Origin: Paraburkholderia acidicola
GTDB lineage: Bacteria; Pseudomonadota; Gammaproteobacteria; Burkholderiales; Burkholderiaceae
Assembly: GCF_002362315.1 (NCBI RefSeq)
Contig: NZ_MTZV01000002.1
Location: 868,001-932,000 of the forward strand
DNA: 64,000 bases
Direction of reading: 5' to 3'
In this document: positions 51,085 to 59,780 of the stretch, piece after piece
How the letters are laid out: each line of letters starts with the position of its first letter
Numbering within the stretch: the first letter of the stretch is position 1
Translations under genes and position numbers: made by a program
The notes under the pieces: model-generated
The model's input: only the letters and a program-made list of their open reading frames with translations
Database searches by the model: none
Told to the model about the DNA's origin: nothing

Positions 51085-51471
51085 CAGCGTGGCTCTCCGC
51101 GCGTTTCAGGTTCGAAACATTTTCTACTGATTTATCGCTGCCACCGTCGCGGTGGCTTCGTCGCTGCCATGTACGGCGCGGCTTCCCGGTCAATGGCATG
51201 GTTATCGCTAAGTAACCCGCAGGCATCCGGTTCACGCAGGACGGACATCACGACGGCGAGCAAGCTGCCATCCACCGCCCGCGCGAACCTCGCGCTATGG
51301 ACGATCGCGCCATCGTGCGTATCCGTTCGTGCGCACGTTGCGGCATGCACGCCGGACGCCTGGCCACGGATAAACCGCGCAGCATGGCTGCGCGCTGTCC
51401 GGCCTGCTTCGCGTGCACAACAGGATGGAGATGACGTCGACGAGGAACGTCGTCTCGCAGGGAGAGCAGTG
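51085..51471. other. Non-coding region before the poly-Gly gene
   Basis: I see no supported gene in these 387 bases. The open frame running from 51169 into the poly-Gly gene has no ribosome site or domain before 51472. The promoter of that gene should lie here. Confidence 0.5.
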
Positions 51472-52296
51472 ATGAAAACTACAACGTTAAATCAGTATTA
51501 CTACGTGATGCTGCGGGGTACGGCGCTTCTGGCTGCCGGTACGGGAATGCTGCTGGCCGCACATACGGCGCACGGAGCGCCCGCCGATGACGTGCTGCCG
51601 AAGTGGATCGTCGCAGCCGATGCACCACTTCCCGCGAGCGGCGCAGCGCCGGTTGCGCTGCTGGCGCAGGACACCTCGTCCGCGACAGCGACAGCGGCGG
51701 CTGCCAGCGCTTCGAGCGCCGCCGACGATGCCTCGCTTGTCTTCCTCGTGAGGACCTGTACCGGCGACGCCGGTCATTGCATGCCGAATCGCAGCGGCGG
51801 CTCGGGCAACTCGGGTAACTCGGGTAACTCAGGCGGCTCCGGCGGTAGTGGTGGCGGCAGCAGCGGCTCGGGTGGCAAGGGCGGCGGTAGCGGCAGTAGC
51901 GGTGGTGGTAGCAGTGGTGGTGGTAGTAGCGGCGGTGGTGGCGGTGGCGGTGGCAGTGGCAGTGGCGGTGGCGGTGGCGGTGGCGGTGGCGGTGGCGGTG
52001 GCGGTGGCGGTGGCGGTGGCGGCGGCGGCGGTGGTGGCGGCGGTGGCGGCGGTGGCGGCGGTGGCGGCGGTGGCGGCACTGGCGGGTGCGGTTGCGGCGG
52101 CGGCGGTCCCAGCGGCGGCCCCAGTGGTGGTCCCAGCGGCGGTCCCTCCGGAGGTTTCGGTGGCGGCTTCGGTGGTGGAATGGGCGGTATGGGTGGCGGC
52201 TTCGGTGCAGGTTCGGGCAAAGGTGGCTTCGGCGGAGGCTACGGCGGCGGATCTGGCGCGGGAGGCGGCGGCAAAGGTGGTGGCAACGGACATTAG
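51472..52296 (+). CDS. Exported glycine-rich protein with a 38-Gly run
   Basis: ATG 51472 follows GGGAGAGC. The 274-residue product has an N-terminal hydrophobic signal (TALLAAGTGMLLAAHTAHG), an Ala-rich stretch, one SLVFLVRTCTGDAGHC segment, and then about 165 residues of Gly/Ser. That part includes an uninterrupted run of 38 glycines encoded at 51964-52077, a TGGCGCGGGGP element and repeated GGPS and GFGGGF units. No family is recognised. Poly-Gly sequences occur in cell-surface or matrix proteins and adhesin-like molecules. It lies 310 bp before the Rap1a/Tai-like gene on the same strand. Confidence 0.75.
   Translation: MKTTTLNQYYYVMLRGTALLAAGTGMLLAAHTAHGAPADDVLPKWIVAADAPLPASGAAPVALLAQDTSSATATAAAASASSAADDASLVFLVRTCTGDAGHCMPNRSGGSGNSGNSGNSGGSGGSGGGSSGSGGKGGGSGSSGGGSSGGGSSGGGGGGGGSGSGGGGGGGGGGGGGGGGGGGGGGGGGGGGGGGGGGGGGGTGGCGCGGGGPSGGPSGGPSGGPSGGFGGGFGGGMGGMGGGFGAGSGKGGFGGGYGGGSGAGGGGKGGGNGH
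51964..52077 (+). repeat. GGTGGC/GGCGGT hexanucleotide repeat coding for poly-glycine
   Basis: The left part (51964-52020) is an almost perfect array of GGCGGT hexamers, and the right part mixes GGC and GGT triplets. In-frame arrays of this type change length readily by slippage. Confidence 0.9.
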
Positions 52297-54123: not shown

Positions 54124-54870
54124 ATGACCTCAGCCTCGGAAGACCGCTGGCGCGACCTGCGCCCGGACCCGGAAAACGACACACCGCTTTACCTGCAGCT
54201 CGCCCGCAAGCTCGGCAACGCAATTCACGAAAACCGCTGGAATGCCGGCGAGGCGCTGCCGTCGGAGCGTGTGCTCTCCGATGCGCTCGGCGTATCGCGC
54301 ATTACGTCCCGCAAGGCGATCGCGCTGCTCGTCGAGCAAGGTTTGATCCGCCGCACCCAGGGCGCGGGCAGTTTCATCACGCCGCGCTACGAAGACCCGC
54401 TGTCGCGTCTGTCGAGCTTTAGCGAAATGCTGCGTCGACGCGGTTTCACGCCGAGTTCGCAATGGCTGTCGCGCGACATCGTGCCGGCCAATCGCGATGA
54501 AGTGATCCAGCTGGGCCTGTCGCCGGCGGCGGCGGTGACGCGGTTGCGCCGTCTGCGGCTCGCGGACGGCATCGTGATGGCGGTCGAGAACTCGACCTTC
54601 CCTGCCTCGGTGATTCCCGATCCGCAGGCAATCGGCGACTCGCTGTATAGCTACCTCGAACATCGTGGGCTGTCGATCGTGCGTGCGTTGCAGCACTTTC
54701 GCGCGGTCAACGCGAGCGAAGAGATTGCGCGGCAAATGAGCATCGCCACGAACGAGGCGCTGCTGCTGATCACCCGTGTCGGTTATACGGCCGATCAACG
54801 GGCGATCGAATTGACCGATACGTATTGCCGCAACGACTACTACGACTTTGTCGCGGAGTTGCGTAAGTAG
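54124..54870 (+). CDS. GntR-family regulator, HutC/UTRA type
   Basis: The 248-residue protein has an N-terminal winged helix (LPSERVLSDALGVSRITSRKAIALLVEQGLI) and a C-terminal UTRA ligand domain (LSSFSEMLRRRGFTP, later RLRLADGIVMAVENSTFP). Such regulators often control uptake and use of N-acetylglucosamine, histidine or similar compounds. No catabolic operon follows it here, so its target lies elsewhere or is the divergent aldo/keto reductase. Confidence 0.9.
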   Translation: MTSASEDRWRDLRPDPENDTPLYLQLARKLGNAIHENRWNAGEALPSERVLSDALGVSRITSRKAIALLVEQGLIRRTQGAGSFITPRYEDPLSRLSSFSEMLRRRGFTPSSQWLSRDIVPANRDEVIQLGLSPAAAVTRLRRLRLADGIVMAVENSTFPASVIPDPQAIGDSLYSYLEHRGLSIVRALQHFRAVNASEEIARQMSIATNEALLLITRVGYTADQRAIELTDTYCRNDYYDFVAELRK

Positions 54871-55011: not shown

Positions 55012-56418
55012 TCAGTCTTCCCAGCACGCGGCGTCGTGACCGATCGGCACGGGCGGTCGCGCAAAAAACGGTGGTGTCTCCGACAGGTGTTCTGCGGGCA
55101 ACGTACCGCGTACGCGGCCGAACGGTGAATCGACGGTCTCCAGACAATCGGCGACATCTTCCAGCGTGACATCGGGCGTGCGCCAGCCATCTTCGATCTG
55201 CCCCAGCGACTGCAACCAGCGGCCGGTCTGCGCCAGCGACACCCGTACATGCCAGCTACCGCCCTCGGTCGCGCGTCGCGCAAGCGCCGTCATCGCGCCG
55301 AACGCAGCCAGATAGCCGGTTGCATGATCGAGCGCCTGACACGGCAGATGCTTCGGCACTTCGCTCTGCGCAGCGCGACTCTCCGTCCACGCGATACCGC
55401 TCGCGGACTGCACGAGACTGTCGAAACCGCGACGTGTCGCCCACGGCCCCGCATGGCTATATGCGGACACCGAGACGTACACGATGCCCGGCCGCATCTG
55501 CGCCAGCGCATCGTGGCCGAAGCCGCGCGCCGCCAGCGCACCAGGACGATAGGCCTGCAGGAACACGTCGGCGCCAGTTGCCAGCTCGCGTAACTGGGCA
55601 CGTGCCGCGTCATCGCGCAGATCGAGCGCAGCAGAGCGTTTGCCACGCCCCGTATCGATCACGAGCGGCGCGATGTTCGGTAGATGCGGACCATTGATCA
55701 ACAACACCTGCGCGCCATGCTGCGCGAGCGCGCGACCCGCCGTCGGCCCCGCGATGATGCGCGACAGATCGAGCACCCGCACGCCAGCGAGCGGCCGGTC
55801 GAAGCCACCCCGGCCAGGCGGTTCGGGCGGCGCTTCGCCGATCCGCTCGATCTCGAAGAGCGGTAGATCGGCAATCGCCTTCGCCTGTTCGAGCGTGGCC
55901 CATTCGCGTGGCGAACGGATCAGCGCCGCGCACAGGCCCGCATTGGCCAGCGTCTGATCAAGCGCCGCGCCGTCCCAGCCGCGGATTGCCTCGGCCACCG
56001 CCGCAGGCTCATTCGCGCAACCGAGCACGTCCAGCACGCCGCGCAGATGATGCGGAAAATTCGTATGCAGTTGCACCCAGCGACCGTCGCGCGTCGCATA
56101 GAAGCCCATGATGGGATCGCGCAGCGCAGGCGGCGGTCCGTCGTTCAGGCGGAGATAGCGCTCGCTGCGAAAAGCGGCCAGCGCACGACGCACATCGACA
56201 TCGACGCGCTGCCGACAACCGGTGCGCAAACGAAAACATTCGGCGGCAGCGAGCCCGGTTGCGGCAATCGTCGATGCCGCCAGCGTGCCGACGCGATAGA
56301 CAGACGGCAACCCGGGATCGGTGCCTGTGAGGGAAACGGCATCGAGCGCAGCCGGATCGCAGCCGGCCAAGCTCCAGAGATGATCGAGCGCAAGAGAAGG
56401 AGTCATGTTGATCGGCAT
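55012..56418 (-). CDS. CaiB/BaiF-type CoA-transferase (class III)
   Basis: The 468-residue protein is a family III CoA-transferase. LAGVRVLDLSRIIAGPTAGRALAQHGAQVLLI holds the CoA-binding start, and GKRSAALDLRDDAARAQLREL follows, then the AYRPGALAARGFGHDAL and VSVSAYSHAGPWATRRGFDSLVQ regions. The first 200 residues contain a second, partly degenerate copy of the fold (ECFRLRTGCRQRVDVDVR, MGFYATRDGRWVQLH), as in two-domain members. It moves CoA between carboxylic acids; the acids are unknown. It diverges from the HTH-citrate synthase gene, sharing a 122-bp control region. Confidence 0.88.
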   Translation of the reverse strand: MPINMTPSLALDHLWSLAGCDPAALDAVSLTGTDPGLPSVYRVGTLAASTIAATGLAAAECFRLRTGCRQRVDVDVRRALAAFRSERYLRLNDGPPPALRDPIMGFYATRDGRWVQLHTNFPHHLRGVLDVLGCANEPAAVAEAIRGWDGAALDQTLANAGLCAALIRSPREWATLEQAKAIADLPLFEIERIGEAPPEPPGRGGFDRPLAGVRVLDLSRIIAGPTAGRALAQHGAQVLLINGPHLPNIAPLVIDTGRGKRSAALDLRDDAARAQLRELATGADVFLQAYRPGALAARGFGHDALAQMRPGIVYVSVSAYSHAGPWATRRGFDSLVQSASGIAWTESRAAQSEVPKHLPCQALDHATGYLAAFGAMTALARRATEGGSWHVRVSLAQTGRWLQSLGQIEDGWRTPDVTLEDVADCLETVDSPFGRVRGTLPAEHLSETPPFFARPPVPIGHDAACWED

Positions 56419-56465
56419 CGCCTGACAGGAAGAATGGCTTCGAGTCTAGAATTGCCTCTTATCGC

Positions 56466-56490
56466 AATCAATCTTGATTAATATAATCAA
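56466..56490. promoter_or_regulatory. Three-half-site operator between CoA-transferase and HTH-citrate synthase genes
   Basis: Three alternating half-sites stand in a row: AATCAA at 56466-56471, TTGATTA at 56474-56480 and TAATCAA at 56484-56490. Left and middle form one inverted repeat with a 2-base spacer; middle and right form a perfect 7-bp inverted repeat with a 3-base spacer. The site is AT-rich in a GC-rich setting and lies 51 bases before the citrate synthase-like start and about 48 before the CoA-transferase start. Its location suggests binding by the HTH domain of the neighbour. Confidence 0.6.
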
Positions 56491-56540
56491 CATAGATCGA
56501 TTTCTATGGTTTTCCGCCGCTCTTATACGCATACCCGCCC

Positions 56541-57779
56541 ATGCCCGATCAACTGACCGCCACCGAAGCCGCCGAGACCCTCGGCATCAGCGTCGCCACG
56601 CTCTATGCCTACGTGAGCCGCGGCATGTTGCGCTCGACGCCCGATGTCGAGGGACAGCGCCATCTGTACGACGCAGCCGACGTGCGTCGTCTTGCGCGTC
56701 GCAAGGCGGATGGCAAACGGGCAGGCAAGGTTGCGCAGAAGGTGCTGGACTGGGGCGTACCGGTGCTGGAATCGTCGATCACGCTGATTGCAGACGGCCA
56801 GCTTTTCTATCGCGGCCGCGATGCCATCGATCTCGCGCGCAAGGCGAGCCTTGAAGAAGTTGCCGCGCTGCTGTGGGAATGCACGCCGCGACGCATTGCC
56901 GATACGCCACCGACGCAGCCGGGACCGCCCTCCCCCGCGCAATGGGCCGCGTGGCTAAAGCTATGGAGCGACAGCGCACCGCTCGATCGCGCGCTGGTGC
57001 TTCTACCCGCGGCCGCCGCCCAGATGCCGCGCGTCTGGGCGCTCGGCCGCGATGCACAACTCGATGCTGCGTGTTCACTGGTGCGGCTACTCGCTGCCGC
57101 GATGATCTCAAGCGCGCCGTCTAGCAATCCGCTGCATCGACAACTCGCCGCTACATGGGGCGTGCGCAACCGGCAACAGGCCGACCTGCTGCGCATGGCG
57201 CTGGTGCTATGTGCGGATCATGAGTTGAACGCGTCGACGTTTACCGTGCGCTGCATTACGTCGACCGGCACCCATCTGTTCGGTGCGGTGGCGGGCGGTC
57301 TCGCCGCGCTGGCCGGGCCGCGCCATGGCGGCGAAACCACGCGCGTCGCCGCGCTGTTCGATGAAGCTGAGCGTGCCGGCGATCTCGACCGCTTCCTCGC
57401 CACCCGCATCGCGCACAACGAACACGACGGTGCGCCTGGTGCGGTGCTGTCGGGCTTCGGTCATCCGCTGTACCCGCAAGGTGATCCGCGCGCGGCGCTG
57501 CTACTGGACGCGCTGACGCAATGCGCGCCGGCGCGCTCGCCGCTGCCGGCGATCCTCGCGCTCGCGCAGACCGTGCGCGAAACCACAGGTGCCGAACCGA
57601 CAGTCGACTTCGCTCTCGCCGCCCTCGAGCGCGTGCTCGATCTACCGAAGGAAGCGGCGTTCACGCTGTTCGCCGTCGGGCGGACGGTCGGCTGGATCGC
57701 CCACGCGATGGAACAGGCCGCGGACGGAAGACTGATCCGGCCGCGCGCCCGTTACATCGGCGAACACTACGAAGACTGA
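56541..57779 (+). CDS. Citrate synthase-family enzyme fused to an N-terminal MerR/excisionase-type HTH
   Basis: The 412-residue protein begins with a helix-turn-helix of MerR or excisionase type (residues 5-55: LTATEAAETLGISVATLYAYVSRGML, then RHLYDAADVRRLA). A citrate synthase domain follows (about residues 65-410). The active-site residues are kept: ADHELNASTFTVR, H262 in GPRHGGET, H308 in GFGHPLYPQGDPRA and D356 in TVDFAL. So it can probably still condense acetyl-CoA or propionyl-CoA with an oxo acid, while the HTH suggests DNA binding. The neighbour is a CoA-transferase on the other strand. The pair may act together in making or using an acyl-CoA. This fusion family is known by sequence, but its role is not settled. 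Confidence 0.87.
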   Translation: MPDQLTATEAAETLGISVATLYAYVSRGMLRSTPDVEGQRHLYDAADVRRLARRKADGKRAGKVAQKVLDWGVPVLESSITLIADGQLFYRGRDAIDLARKASLEEVAALLWECTPRRIADTPPTQPGPPSPAQWAAWLKLWSDSAPLDRALVLLPAAAAQMPRVWALGRDAQLDAACSLVRLLAAAMISSAPSSNPLHRQLAATWGVRNRQQADLLRMALVLCADHELNASTFTVRCITSTGTHLFGAVAGGLAALAGPRHGGETTRVAALFDEAERAGDLDRFLATRIAHNEHDGAPGAVLSGFGHPLYPQGDPRAALLLDALTQCAPARSPLPAILALAQTVRETTGAEPTVDFALAALERVLDLPKEAAFTLFAVGRTVGWIAHAMEQAADGRLIRPRARYIGEHYED

Positions 57780-57868: not shown

Positions 57869-58186
57869 TCACGCCGCAAGCAACCACCGCGGCAACCAGC
57901 TACGTACCGGTGCACGCAGCCCAGCAGCAGCCGGCCGCGGCGTGCCGACACGCCCTTCCTCGACCGCCAGCGCGACGCGCGCACCCGTGCGTCCGGCACT
58001 GATCCACGCCTGCGCACCGCGCGGCAATTCGAAGGACTCGCCAGAGGCAAGCCAGTGATCGGTCAGGTCGCCGCTGACGGTCAACCAGACCTCGCCCGCC
58101 ATCACTTTGAGTACGAGCGGCTGCGCGACACGCCAGGCGGCCGCGGGCTCGCCGTGTTCGAGTTCGAAAGTACGGATTTCGCGCAT
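57869..58186 (-). CDS. DUF2917 protein
   Basis: ATG 58186 follows CAAGGAGAAC. The 105-residue protein matches the small DUF2917 type: a beta-rich cupin-like core with LVLKVMAGEVWLTVSGDLTDHWLASGESFELPRG and a variable basic tail. Its function is unknown. It is paired divergently with a MocR regulator, an arrangement often seen for this family. Confidence 0.8.
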   Translation of the reverse strand: MREIRTFELEHGEPAAAWRVAQPLVLKVMAGEVWLTVSGDLTDHWLASGESFELPRGAQAWISAGRTGARVALAVEEGRVGTPRPAAAGLRAPVRSWLPRWLLAA

Positions 58187-58250
58187 TGCTGTTCTCCTTG
58201 CAGGGCACTCTGGATGAAACATTATTGCTGTGCGATGATCAGAAACCCAT

Positions 58251-58367: not shown

Positions 58368-59780
58368 ATGAAACTCGATATCGAACTCGATCGCGACAAC
58401 GGCGTACCGCTCATCGAGCAGATCGTGCACGGCGTGCAGACGTGGATCCGGTCGCGCGCGGCGCGCCCCGGTGCGAAGCTGCCGTCGATCCGTCAGTTCG
58501 CCGCCGACTACGCAATCAGCCGCTTTCCGGTGATCGAAGCGTATGACCGGCTCGTCTCGCTTGGTTACGTCGACTCGCGTCACGGCTCCGGTTTTTATGT
58601 GGCCGAACGGCTGCGCACCGGCATGTCCGGTCGCGGCACCTCGGACCCACGCCGTGCCGAAGAGGAATCCGTTCACCTCCTGCAGGAATTCAACCACCCG
58701 GGCGGCACACTGAAGCTCGGCAGCGGCTTCACCCCGGAAGCGTGGCGCGACATGGATAGCCTCGTGCATGCCATCCGTCACGTATCGCGCGTCGACACCG
58801 AAAGCCTGATCGACTACTCGACACCGCTCGGCAATGCGACGCTGCGCGAACATCTGCAGGCACGCATCGCACAGCTCGGCATCGTCGTGGATGCATCGCA
58901 GATCCTCATCACGAACGGCGCAAGCCACGCGCTCGACCTGCTGATGCGTTACCGGCTCAAGCCCGGCGACACCGTGTTTGTCGAAGACCCCGGCTACTTC
59001 AACCTGAACGGCCTGCTGAAGCTGCACGGCGTCAAGCTGATCGGCATTCCGCGCAATCACGGCGGCCCGGATCTCGATGTGCTGCAGGCACAGTTGCAGC
59101 AGCATCGGCCGAAGCTGTTCTTCATCAACACCGTGTTTCACAATCCCACCGGCACGTCGGTGTCGCCACCGGTTGCGTTCCGGTTGCTGCAGTTCGCCCG
59201 CGAGCACGATTTCACGTTCGTCGAAGACGACATCTTCGCGGACTTCCAGAGCGAACCGACGGCGCGACTCGCGACGCTCGATCAGCTCGAACATGTGGTC
59301 TATATCGGTGGGCTGTCGAAGACGCTGTCGTCGTCGCTGCGCATCGGCTACCTCGTGGCGAGCCATGCGATCGTCAAGGATCTGATCGACATCAAGATGC
59401 TGACGAGCATCGGCGGGTCGCGTTTTGTCGAAGCGGTCGCGGTTGCGCTGCTCGAGCGCGGCATGTACCGGAAGTATCTCGAGCGGCTGCGGCGCCGGAT
59501 GAGCGATGCGATGGGCCTCACCGTGCAGACGCTCGAAGACCACGGCTGGGAAGTGTTCGAAAAGCCGCTCGGCGGTCAGTTCGTGTGGGCGCGTGTGCCC
59601 GGTATCGACGACGCGGCGCGGCTCGTCGAATGCGGCGAGCCGCTTGGCGTGACGGTCCCGCCGGGCAGCTACTTCCGGCCCAACGCGGAGACGAGCCCGT
59701 GGATTCGTATCAATGCGGCGTTCGGCAACGATCCGCGTGCGCATGCGTTCTTTGCGGCGGCGGCGCAACTCCCACGCTGA
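58368..59780 (+). CDS. MocR-type GntR/aminotransferase-like regulator (second in the window)
   Basis: ATG 58368 follows AGGAGG. The 470-residue protein has a GntR winged helix (LPSIRQFAADYAISRFPVIEAYDRLVSLGYV) and an aminotransferase-like domain (NGASHALDLLMRY, the FVEDDIFADF region, and the PLP lysine in GGLSKTLSSSLRIGYL). It is expected to bind DNA at the operator array just upstream and to control the divergent DUF2917 gene and itself. It could keep residual aminotransferase activity. Confidence 0.92.
   Translation: MKLDIELDRDNGVPLIEQIVHGVQTWIRSRAARPGAKLPSIRQFAADYAISRFPVIEAYDRLVSLGYVDSRHGSGFYVAERLRTGMSGRGTSDPRRAEEESVHLLQEFNHPGGTLKLGSGFTPEAWRDMDSLVHAIRHVSRVDTESLIDYSTPLGNATLREHLQARIAQLGIVVDASQILITNGASHALDLLMRYRLKPGDTVFVEDPGYFNLNGLLKLHGVKLIGIPRNHGGPDLDVLQAQLQQHRPKLFFINTVFHNPTGTSVSPPVAFRLLQFAREHDFTFVEDDIFADFQSEPTARLATLDQLEHVVYIGGLSKTLSSSLRIGYLVASHAIVKDLIDIKMLTSIGGSRFVEAVAVALLERGMYRKYLERLRRRMSDAMGLTVQTLEDHGWEVFEKPLGGQFVWARVPGIDDAARLVECGEPLGVTVPPGSYFRPNAETSPWIRINAAFGNDPRAHAFFAAAAQLPR

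Follow-up and report, generated by a model that had tools for sequence, protein, structure and literature searches.

A citrate synthase fused to a winged-helix domain as a probable regulator of its own gene and a divergent CoA-transferase gene in Paraburkholderia acidicola

Trigger enzymes and enzyme-derived regulators such as PutA, BirA, NadR and MocR join an enzyme or an enzyme-like fold to DNA binding, and to our knowledge none of them has a citrate synthase domain. We examined a gene in a 64,000-nucleotide stretch of Paraburkholderia acidicola (contig NZ_MTZV01000002.1, positions 868,001 to 932,000; hereafter the window, with positions counted from its first nucleotide) that encodes this very combination: a citrate synthase with an N-terminal helix-turn-helix (HTH) head, termed here HTH-CS, lying divergent to a gene for a CaiB-type coenzyme A (CoA) transferase (Table 1). 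No description of an HTH-citrate synthase as a DNA-binding regulator was found in the literature, mainly open-access and judged from search listings. Genome comparison makes it probable that HTH-CS is a one-component transcription regulator derived from citrate synthase that regulates its own gene together with the divergent CoA-transferase gene and whose citrate-synthase body probably senses a metabolite; that HTH-CS itself uses the predicted operator at 56466-56502 is strongly supported by the same comparisons.

Citrate synthases rely on two His residues and an Asp for catalysis and on Arg residues for binding oxaloacetate, and MerR-family regulators possess a coiled coil and an effector domain and bind a single dyad between the -35 and -10 boxes, within a promoter spacer of 19-20 bp. 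HTH-CS has the fold of citrate synthase and 2-methylcitrate synthase (PF00285; PrpC, PDB entry 3o8j), together with all the catalytic and oxaloacetate-binding residues examined, but differs from them in its N-terminal winged helix and its family-wide operator. Like the MerR-family and HTH_17 domains of SkgA, SoxR, MtaN and MerR, it has HTH_17 and MerR_1 matches and winged-helix topology (at the sequence level the HTH fragment matched these four in the PDB without significance, E 0.2-1), but its head is fused to an enzyme domain and its operator is a set of TCAA/TTGA half-sites. Methylcitrate genes in Mycobacterium are regulated by PrpR (MtPrpR), which binds CoA and short-chain acyl-CoA and has a [4Fe4S] cluster (PMC6765138, in excerpt); this is a different protein, and HTH-CS would instead sense through its citrate-synthase active site. 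In Caulobacter, CitB, unlike the citrate-synthase-like CitC, replaced the E. coli citrate synthase, and CitA has a regulatory role on the cell cycle that is independent of catalysis (PMC7083601, in excerpt). The excerpt gives citB and citC consecutive locus tags, resembling the pairs of HTH-less citrate synthase and HTH-CS in 14 of 21 Caulobacteraceae loci described below, and the term "HTH" occurs nowhere in it (0 occurrences); by analogy, CitC is probably the HTH-CS of its pair.

An earlier note, made from the letters of the window alone, had described the protein as a citrate synthase that keeps its catalytic residues H262, H308 and D356 and carries a MerR/excisionase-type HTH at its N-terminus, and both descriptions held. 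The Pfam families HTH_17 (PF12728; aa 5-55, 30.4 bits against a cut-off of 27) and MerR_1 (PF13411; 26.8 bits against 21.6) matched, as did Citrate_synt (PF00285; aa 71-402, 230.6 bits against 27). Among 91 HTH-CS members, H262, H308, D356, R317, R381 and R402 were invariant, H227 was present in 88, and residues 20-28 of the head were 93-100% conserved. The AlphaFold2 model (mean predicted local distance difference test, pLDDT, 91.6; predicted template modelling score, pTM, 0.82) places a winged helix ahead of the citrate synthase part, with N-terminal helices at residues 7-14 and 18-26, strands at 32-34 and 41-44, and a further helix at 45-70; the head thus has an HTH domain above cut-off as well as winged-helix topology, with helices and wing, in the model. 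The nearest solved folds listed by Foldseek were citrate and 2-methylcitrate synthases, Salmonella PrpC (3o8j) being the second match (E 4.7e-15) after 7e8n, and the same PrpC structure was the best PDB sequence match. None of the NCBIfam models for citrate synthase that were listed scored HTH-CS above its own cut-off, and the propionate regulator PrpR (TIGR02329) was not among its 22 NCBIfam matches. Elsewhere in the same genome (C6:623654-624376; L006/L007) there is a further divergent citrate-synthase-like gene with a 375-aa frame.

The gap between the two genes holds four TCAA/TTGA-type half-sites, arranged as AATCAA-TC-TTGATT and AATCAA-N6-TCGATT. Where the earlier note saw a three-half-site operator at 56466-56490, the half-sites are indeed present (AATCAA at 56466-56471, TTGATT at 56474-56479 and AATCAA at 56485-56490), but the count has to be raised to four by an imperfect TCGATT, which has one mismatch, reads TTGATT in many relatives and is not kept in the g36 loci. 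The arrangement TCAA-N2-TTGA-N9-TCAA, allowing one mismatch, is expected 0.11 times per window, and its sole location was the operator (two matches, the second being the same site reversed). TCAANCTTGATN7ATCAA occurred once without mismatch in the 7.17-Mb genome, and a scan allowing two mismatches returned 13 matches: the operator, its own reverse and 11 other places. Eight of these 11 were examined, five of them lying inside called open reading frames (ORFs), two touching an ORF end and one intergenic (G000:C4:564593-564615, TCATGCTTGATTTATGGCATGAA, two mismatches), the last being a possible weak second site. On the eight places examined, we did not adopt a regulon beyond the locus in this genome; an extra inverted repeat, CATAGA/TCTATG at 56491-56508, was set aside as not kept in most relatives. 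A promoter scan of the gap returned nothing at threshold. The putative promoter of the CoA-transferase gene, whose -35 box is overlapped by the operator, has a 17-bp spacer and by count matches the consensus at only 8 of 12 positions, which is why the scan did not report it.

Both the pairing of the two genes and the half-sites, which the earlier note had proposed to look for in related genomes, proved to be conserved there. In the 28 closest loci (own included), a CaiB gene lay divergent and next to HTH-CS in 27, and TCAANCTTGAT-N7-ATCAA was present without mismatch in all 28. Across 249 genomes of the family there were at least 65 adjacent divergent HTH-CS/CaiB pairs and at least 25 genomes with CaiB but no adjacent HTH-CS (lower bounds, as counting rested on 69 HTH-CS and 93 CaiB coordinate rows out of a larger set); several of the 25 carry an HTH-CS paralogue of about 49% identity elsewhere. 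These natural knock-outs were sampled (20 of the 65 pairs and 20 of the 25 CaiB-only genomes), and operators were compared at a fixed distance from an anchor, AGTCTA, 19 bp before TCAA. In the 37 of 48 loci with HTH-CS in which the anchor was found, the operator had no mismatch in 34, one in two and three in one; in the 14 anchored loci that lack HTH-CS but keep CaiB, mismatches were 0, 1, 3, 3, 3, 4, 4, 4, 5, 7, 7, 9, 9 and 10 of 15, and thus at least three in 12 of the 14 (the anchors of L083 and L089 are perhaps spurious). The 11 unanchored loci with HTH-CS comprised six with no mismatch and five (genus g48) with two, L036 and L037 being left out, and the six unanchored loci among the 20 without HTH-CS had at best 5-7 mismatches in the 260 bp looked at.

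AGTCTA, putatively the -10 box of caiB, is retained in 14 of the 20 loci without HTH-CS, and the C, A and A of half-site 1 were altered in 0, 1 and 0 of the 14 anchored ones. The retained CAA and AGTCTA, 17 bp apart, read TTG...TAGACT on the minus strand, which would represent the -35 and -10 boxes of caiB. In the one genome found to have lost CaiB (L030), the operator is intact and AGTCTA is gone. Comparison thus yields the marks of a one-component local regulator: a specific operator at its own gene and at a divergent target, lost with the regulator.

Seven loci with an HTH-CS 33-42% identical to the one in the window also had the operator upstream, with 0-1 mismatch; L051 and L053 (31% identical) had variants of it, and L055 and L056, whose HTH-CS (about 50% identity) is near pyrroloquinoline quinone (PQQ)-type genes, so labelled by eye, had weaker variants with 3-4 mismatches (TCAACGTTGATTATGCTG). 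Six clusters have HTH-CS as the last gene of an operon (L045-L050; SDR, MFS, in four of the six also VOC by eye, then HTH-CS), and in all six, two operators with 0-1 mismatch lie kilobases away at a divergent gene pair, namely at the starts of the dehydrogenase-transporter operon and of a 2-hydroxyacid dehydrogenase gene (exact ORF starts uncertain); these clusters likely form a sugar-acid-type regulon. A blind scan of public genomes with a DNA pattern derived from earlier loci gave at least 120 matching stretches, and 100 of the 120 listed hold an HTH-CS gene. In 98 of them the operator is -20 to +82 bp from the 5' end of HTH-CS as aligned by hidden Markov model; all 98 share the strand of the gene, and in each the match to the model includes its HTH part. 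The other two are operon-type. Eighteen of the 20 listed stretches without an HTH-CS gene came from genomes, some of them incomplete, that gave no full-length HTH-CS match, and look like chance hits; 1 Mb of simulated sequence of like composition contained no operator match at up to two mismatches.

When loci were chosen by protein instead, in a phylum sample, 22 of 26 HTH-CS loci (L255, at a contig end, excluded) had the operator at the gene start with at most one mismatch, one more had a spacer shorter by 1 bp, and the reversed motif was found in none of the 26. The exact motif occurred in 20 of 249 phylum genomes, once each and always at the HTH-CS gene, which 27 of the 249 carry. It was absent from all 222 genomes that had no HTH-CS match, and the reversed control also gave 0; the pattern had been sharpened after viewing the sites of 22 genomes of this sample, so that independence applies only to its absence from those 222 genomes and to the control. 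With the operator tied to HTH-CS genes and mostly decaying on their loss, the proposal of the earlier note that the fusion binds its own promoter gains strong support from comparison. The other two of the 20 listed stretches without an HTH-CS gene come from genomes that do have one: an exact match in Phenylobacterium (L132 4582-4605), away from HTH-CS and beside an RNase HII-like gene (by eye), in a genome whose HTH-CS gene carries its own operator, and a second one in a Pseudoxanthomonas genome that also holds L217 (L195 7438-7461), near the end of the stretch and with its target not seen.

The upstream neighbour was divergent in 113 of 123 HTH-CS loci, which are not independent of one another. 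Partners were an HTH-less citrate synthase (53), CaiB (29), PrpB (8) and MFS (3), others being rarer; truncated loci would raise the first three counts by a few, and for these classes family models were matched on one member each, and in L147, L149, L192 and L215 the reference gene is the HTH-less partner. Pairing with CaiB, which shows four changes on the tree, is found in a Burkholderiaceae group and an Alphaproteobacterial group. In Caulobacteraceae, the operator was present in all 14 loci with a divergent citrate-synthase partner and in none of seven without (Fisher p 8.6e-6; the 21 loci comprise the 20 highest scorers and L265, out of 40 genomes with matches, L264 from another family being excluded; partners were sought within about 1.5 kb, and L285 looks to be the same gene as L239). 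Three of the partnerless loci (L272, L273 and L279) carry, upstream, other repeats that resemble TTGATCAAC and may be an operator that has drifted.

Stenotrophomonas and kin have the methylcitrate-cycle gene prpB as divergent partner, in a group that forms one clade (five rows, 100/100 support) of three Xanthomonadaceae (Lysobacteraceae in the taxonomy used), a Nevskiaceae and an Eremiobacterota record. Several PrpB-linked loci continue with prpC- and acnD-like genes (PrpB was checked by family model on L173 alone; prpC, acnD and prpF were read by eye). PrpR exceeded the curated cut-off in none of 10 genomes with a prp-linked HTH-CS, G447 being counted among them only via a prpF-like gene 3 kb away, and lower-scoring relatives were present in all 11 genomes tested; the P. 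acidicola genome has one PrpR over cut-off, about 1.2 kb from a citrate-synthase-family gene.

In the mechanism that we propose, the winged-helix head would bind the operator at 56466-56502; because citrate synthases are dimers, the citrate-synthase body could present two HTH heads to the inverted repeats. Since the operator overlaps the putative -35 box of caiB, as seen in the 37 anchored loci, and is also placed at the HTH-CS gene start, the simplest reading is that binding would repress both genes. A ligand of the citrate synthase part (oxaloacetate, an acyl-CoA such as propionyl-CoA, or citrate/2-methylcitrate) may alter binding, and the link to methylcitrate genes, together with the nearness to PrpC in sequence and fold, weakly favours propionyl-CoA or 2-methylcitrate. 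The invariance of six active-site residues argues for binding of the natural substrates, and perhaps for catalysis.

HTH-CS might be enzymatically active and at the same time control its own promoter, as a trigger enzyme does. Together with CaiB it would then make up a short acyl-CoA route: CaiB would produce an acyl-CoA for condensation with a 2-oxo acid by the citrate synthase, or the latter would work in the opposite direction, in the manner of a citrate lyase. Such a route would account for the six residues being invariant in 91 of 91 members, for the catalytic-type Asp of CaiB being kept in 28 of 28 sequences, and for the two genes being adjacent in at least 65 family genomes and again in an Alphaproteobacterial clade, but we consider it rather unlikely: 53 loci already have a separate citrate synthase as partner, so the fusion need not be the enzyme, and at least 25 genomes of the family keep CaiB with no HTH-CS next to it. 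Moreover, Caulobacter CitC, the presumed HTH-CS, failed to complement E. coli gltA, which CitB did (PMC7083601, in excerpt). The small self-regulated acyl-CoA pathway put forward in the earlier note is therefore not supported, CaiB being only one of several partners.

Another regulator could in principle occupy the site, be it the GntR/UTRA protein encoded at 54124-54870 of the window, the MocR-type protein at 58368-59780 or a distant one. Both genes are near the operator, and short inverted repeats are what GntR-type proteins bind. In each of the 14 anchored loci without HTH-CS, however, a match to GntR and/or MocR remains (GntR matches being cut by stretch ends) while the operator has mostly decayed, so these proteins do not explain it. 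The same operator also marks HTH-CS genes with different neighbours in Bradyrhizobium, Stenotrophomonas, Variovorax and others, and a foreign binder, disfavoured by the loss patterns, is scarcely credible. It is also very improbable that the site serves the gene as a conserved promoter or RNA element and is no protein-binding operator. It is A+T rich and only tens of bases from the start codon, in some loci even running into the open frame, as such an element might, but its half-sites and spacing are fixed, in operon-type clusters it stands kilobases away, twice, at another divergent gene pair, and its disappearance follows that of a protein-coding gene, whereas 14 of 20 loci without HTH-CS retain the putative -10 box of caiB.

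Several points weigh against HTH-CS as a local regulator with a sensing citrate-synthase body. The case rests on genome comparison, and the contrast in operator mismatches between loci with and without HTH-CS (Mann-Whitney p 1.6e-9) is uncorrected for shared ancestry. L081 (genome G092) lacks HTH-CS and yet has no operator mismatch, a C-terminal remnant of the gene being left there, and L085, also without HTH-CS, has only one. Conversely, three of the 26 sampled HTH-CS loci (L239, L252 and L254) have no canonical operator, the recognition helix being altered in L252 but not in L239 or L254, and neither do seven of the 21 Caulobacteraceae loci. In the P. acidicola genome itself, 11 other places match with two mismatches, as opposed to two for the reversed pattern. 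Finally, a protein that does no more than sense a ligand would not need an invariant catalytic Asp and His residues, and catalysis may therefore be more important than we assume. On balance, HTH-CS looks first like a regulator, with an enzymatic role possible alongside. Only tentatively would we extend this to a bolder proposal, in which HTH-CS proteins are widespread true trigger enzymes whose intact citrate/methylcitrate synthase site reads the supply of oxaloacetate and acyl-CoA and directly determines how far promoters with the one family-wide operator are occupied. They would then take the place of PrpR at methylcitrate genes in Stenotrophomonas and kin, and would control a second citrate synthase in Alphaproteobacteria and the CoA-transferase here.

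If HTH-CS is a regulator as proposed, citrate-synthase-like proteins in many Proteobacteria would constitute a regulator family with one recognisable operator, which would supply a function for a fusion known so far only by sequence. Its likely targets would be second citrate synthases, methylcitrate genes, CoA-transferases and transporter-dehydrogenase clusters, and HTH-CS would be a candidate for the missing methylcitrate regulator of Stenotrophomonas and kin; metabolic models would be warned not to count HTH-CS genes as tricarboxylic acid (TCA) cycle enzymes. The idea lends itself to a simple binding test, as the operator, the protein and its target are all specified.

Table 1. Features of the HTH-CS locus, in positions of the window.
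Feature	Position	Strand	Basis and remarks
CaiB/BaiF-type (class III) CoA-transferase, divergent partner and predicted target	55012..56418	-	PF02515; D364
Putative -10 box of the caiB-like gene	56443..56448	-	TAGACT on minus strand, 17 bp from -35
Putative -35 box of the caiB-like gene	56466..56471	-	TTGATT on minus strand, overlaps half-site 1
Operator core TCAATCTTGATTAATATAATCAA	56468..56490	+	Half-sites 1-3; predicted, by comparison
Fourth half-site TCGATT	56497..56502	+	Completes second inverted repeat with 56485-56490
HTH-citrate synthase fusion (HTH-CS), predicted regulator	56541..57779	+	412 aa; domain hits, AlphaFold2 model
HTH_17/MerR-type winged helix	56553..56705	+	aa 5-55; predicted recognition helix aa 18-26, motif TLYAYVSRG
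Citrate synthase domain	56751..57746	+	aa 71-402; H262, H308, D356, R317, R381, R402

The divergent gene had been assigned to the CaiB-type CoA-transferases in the earlier note, and its product was matched by PF02515 at 190.9 bits (Pfam), with D364 conserved in the 28 sequences compared; counted on the alignment, D364 lines up with D175 of Rv3272, which is mutated in entry 5yiy. Profile positions 1-204, the catalytic half, are at aa 210-404, with about 205 aa ahead of them, and most of the 50 Foldseek rows listed align over only about 200-220 columns; the domain order may be permuted relative to CaiB. Synteny with HTH-CS extends to a DUF2917 gene (57872-58231; 28 of the 28 closest loci) and to the MocR-type gene (27 of 28), with no evidence of a functional link for either. 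Farther off in the window, an ORF at 51169-52296 carries a long stretch of glycine-rich repeats.

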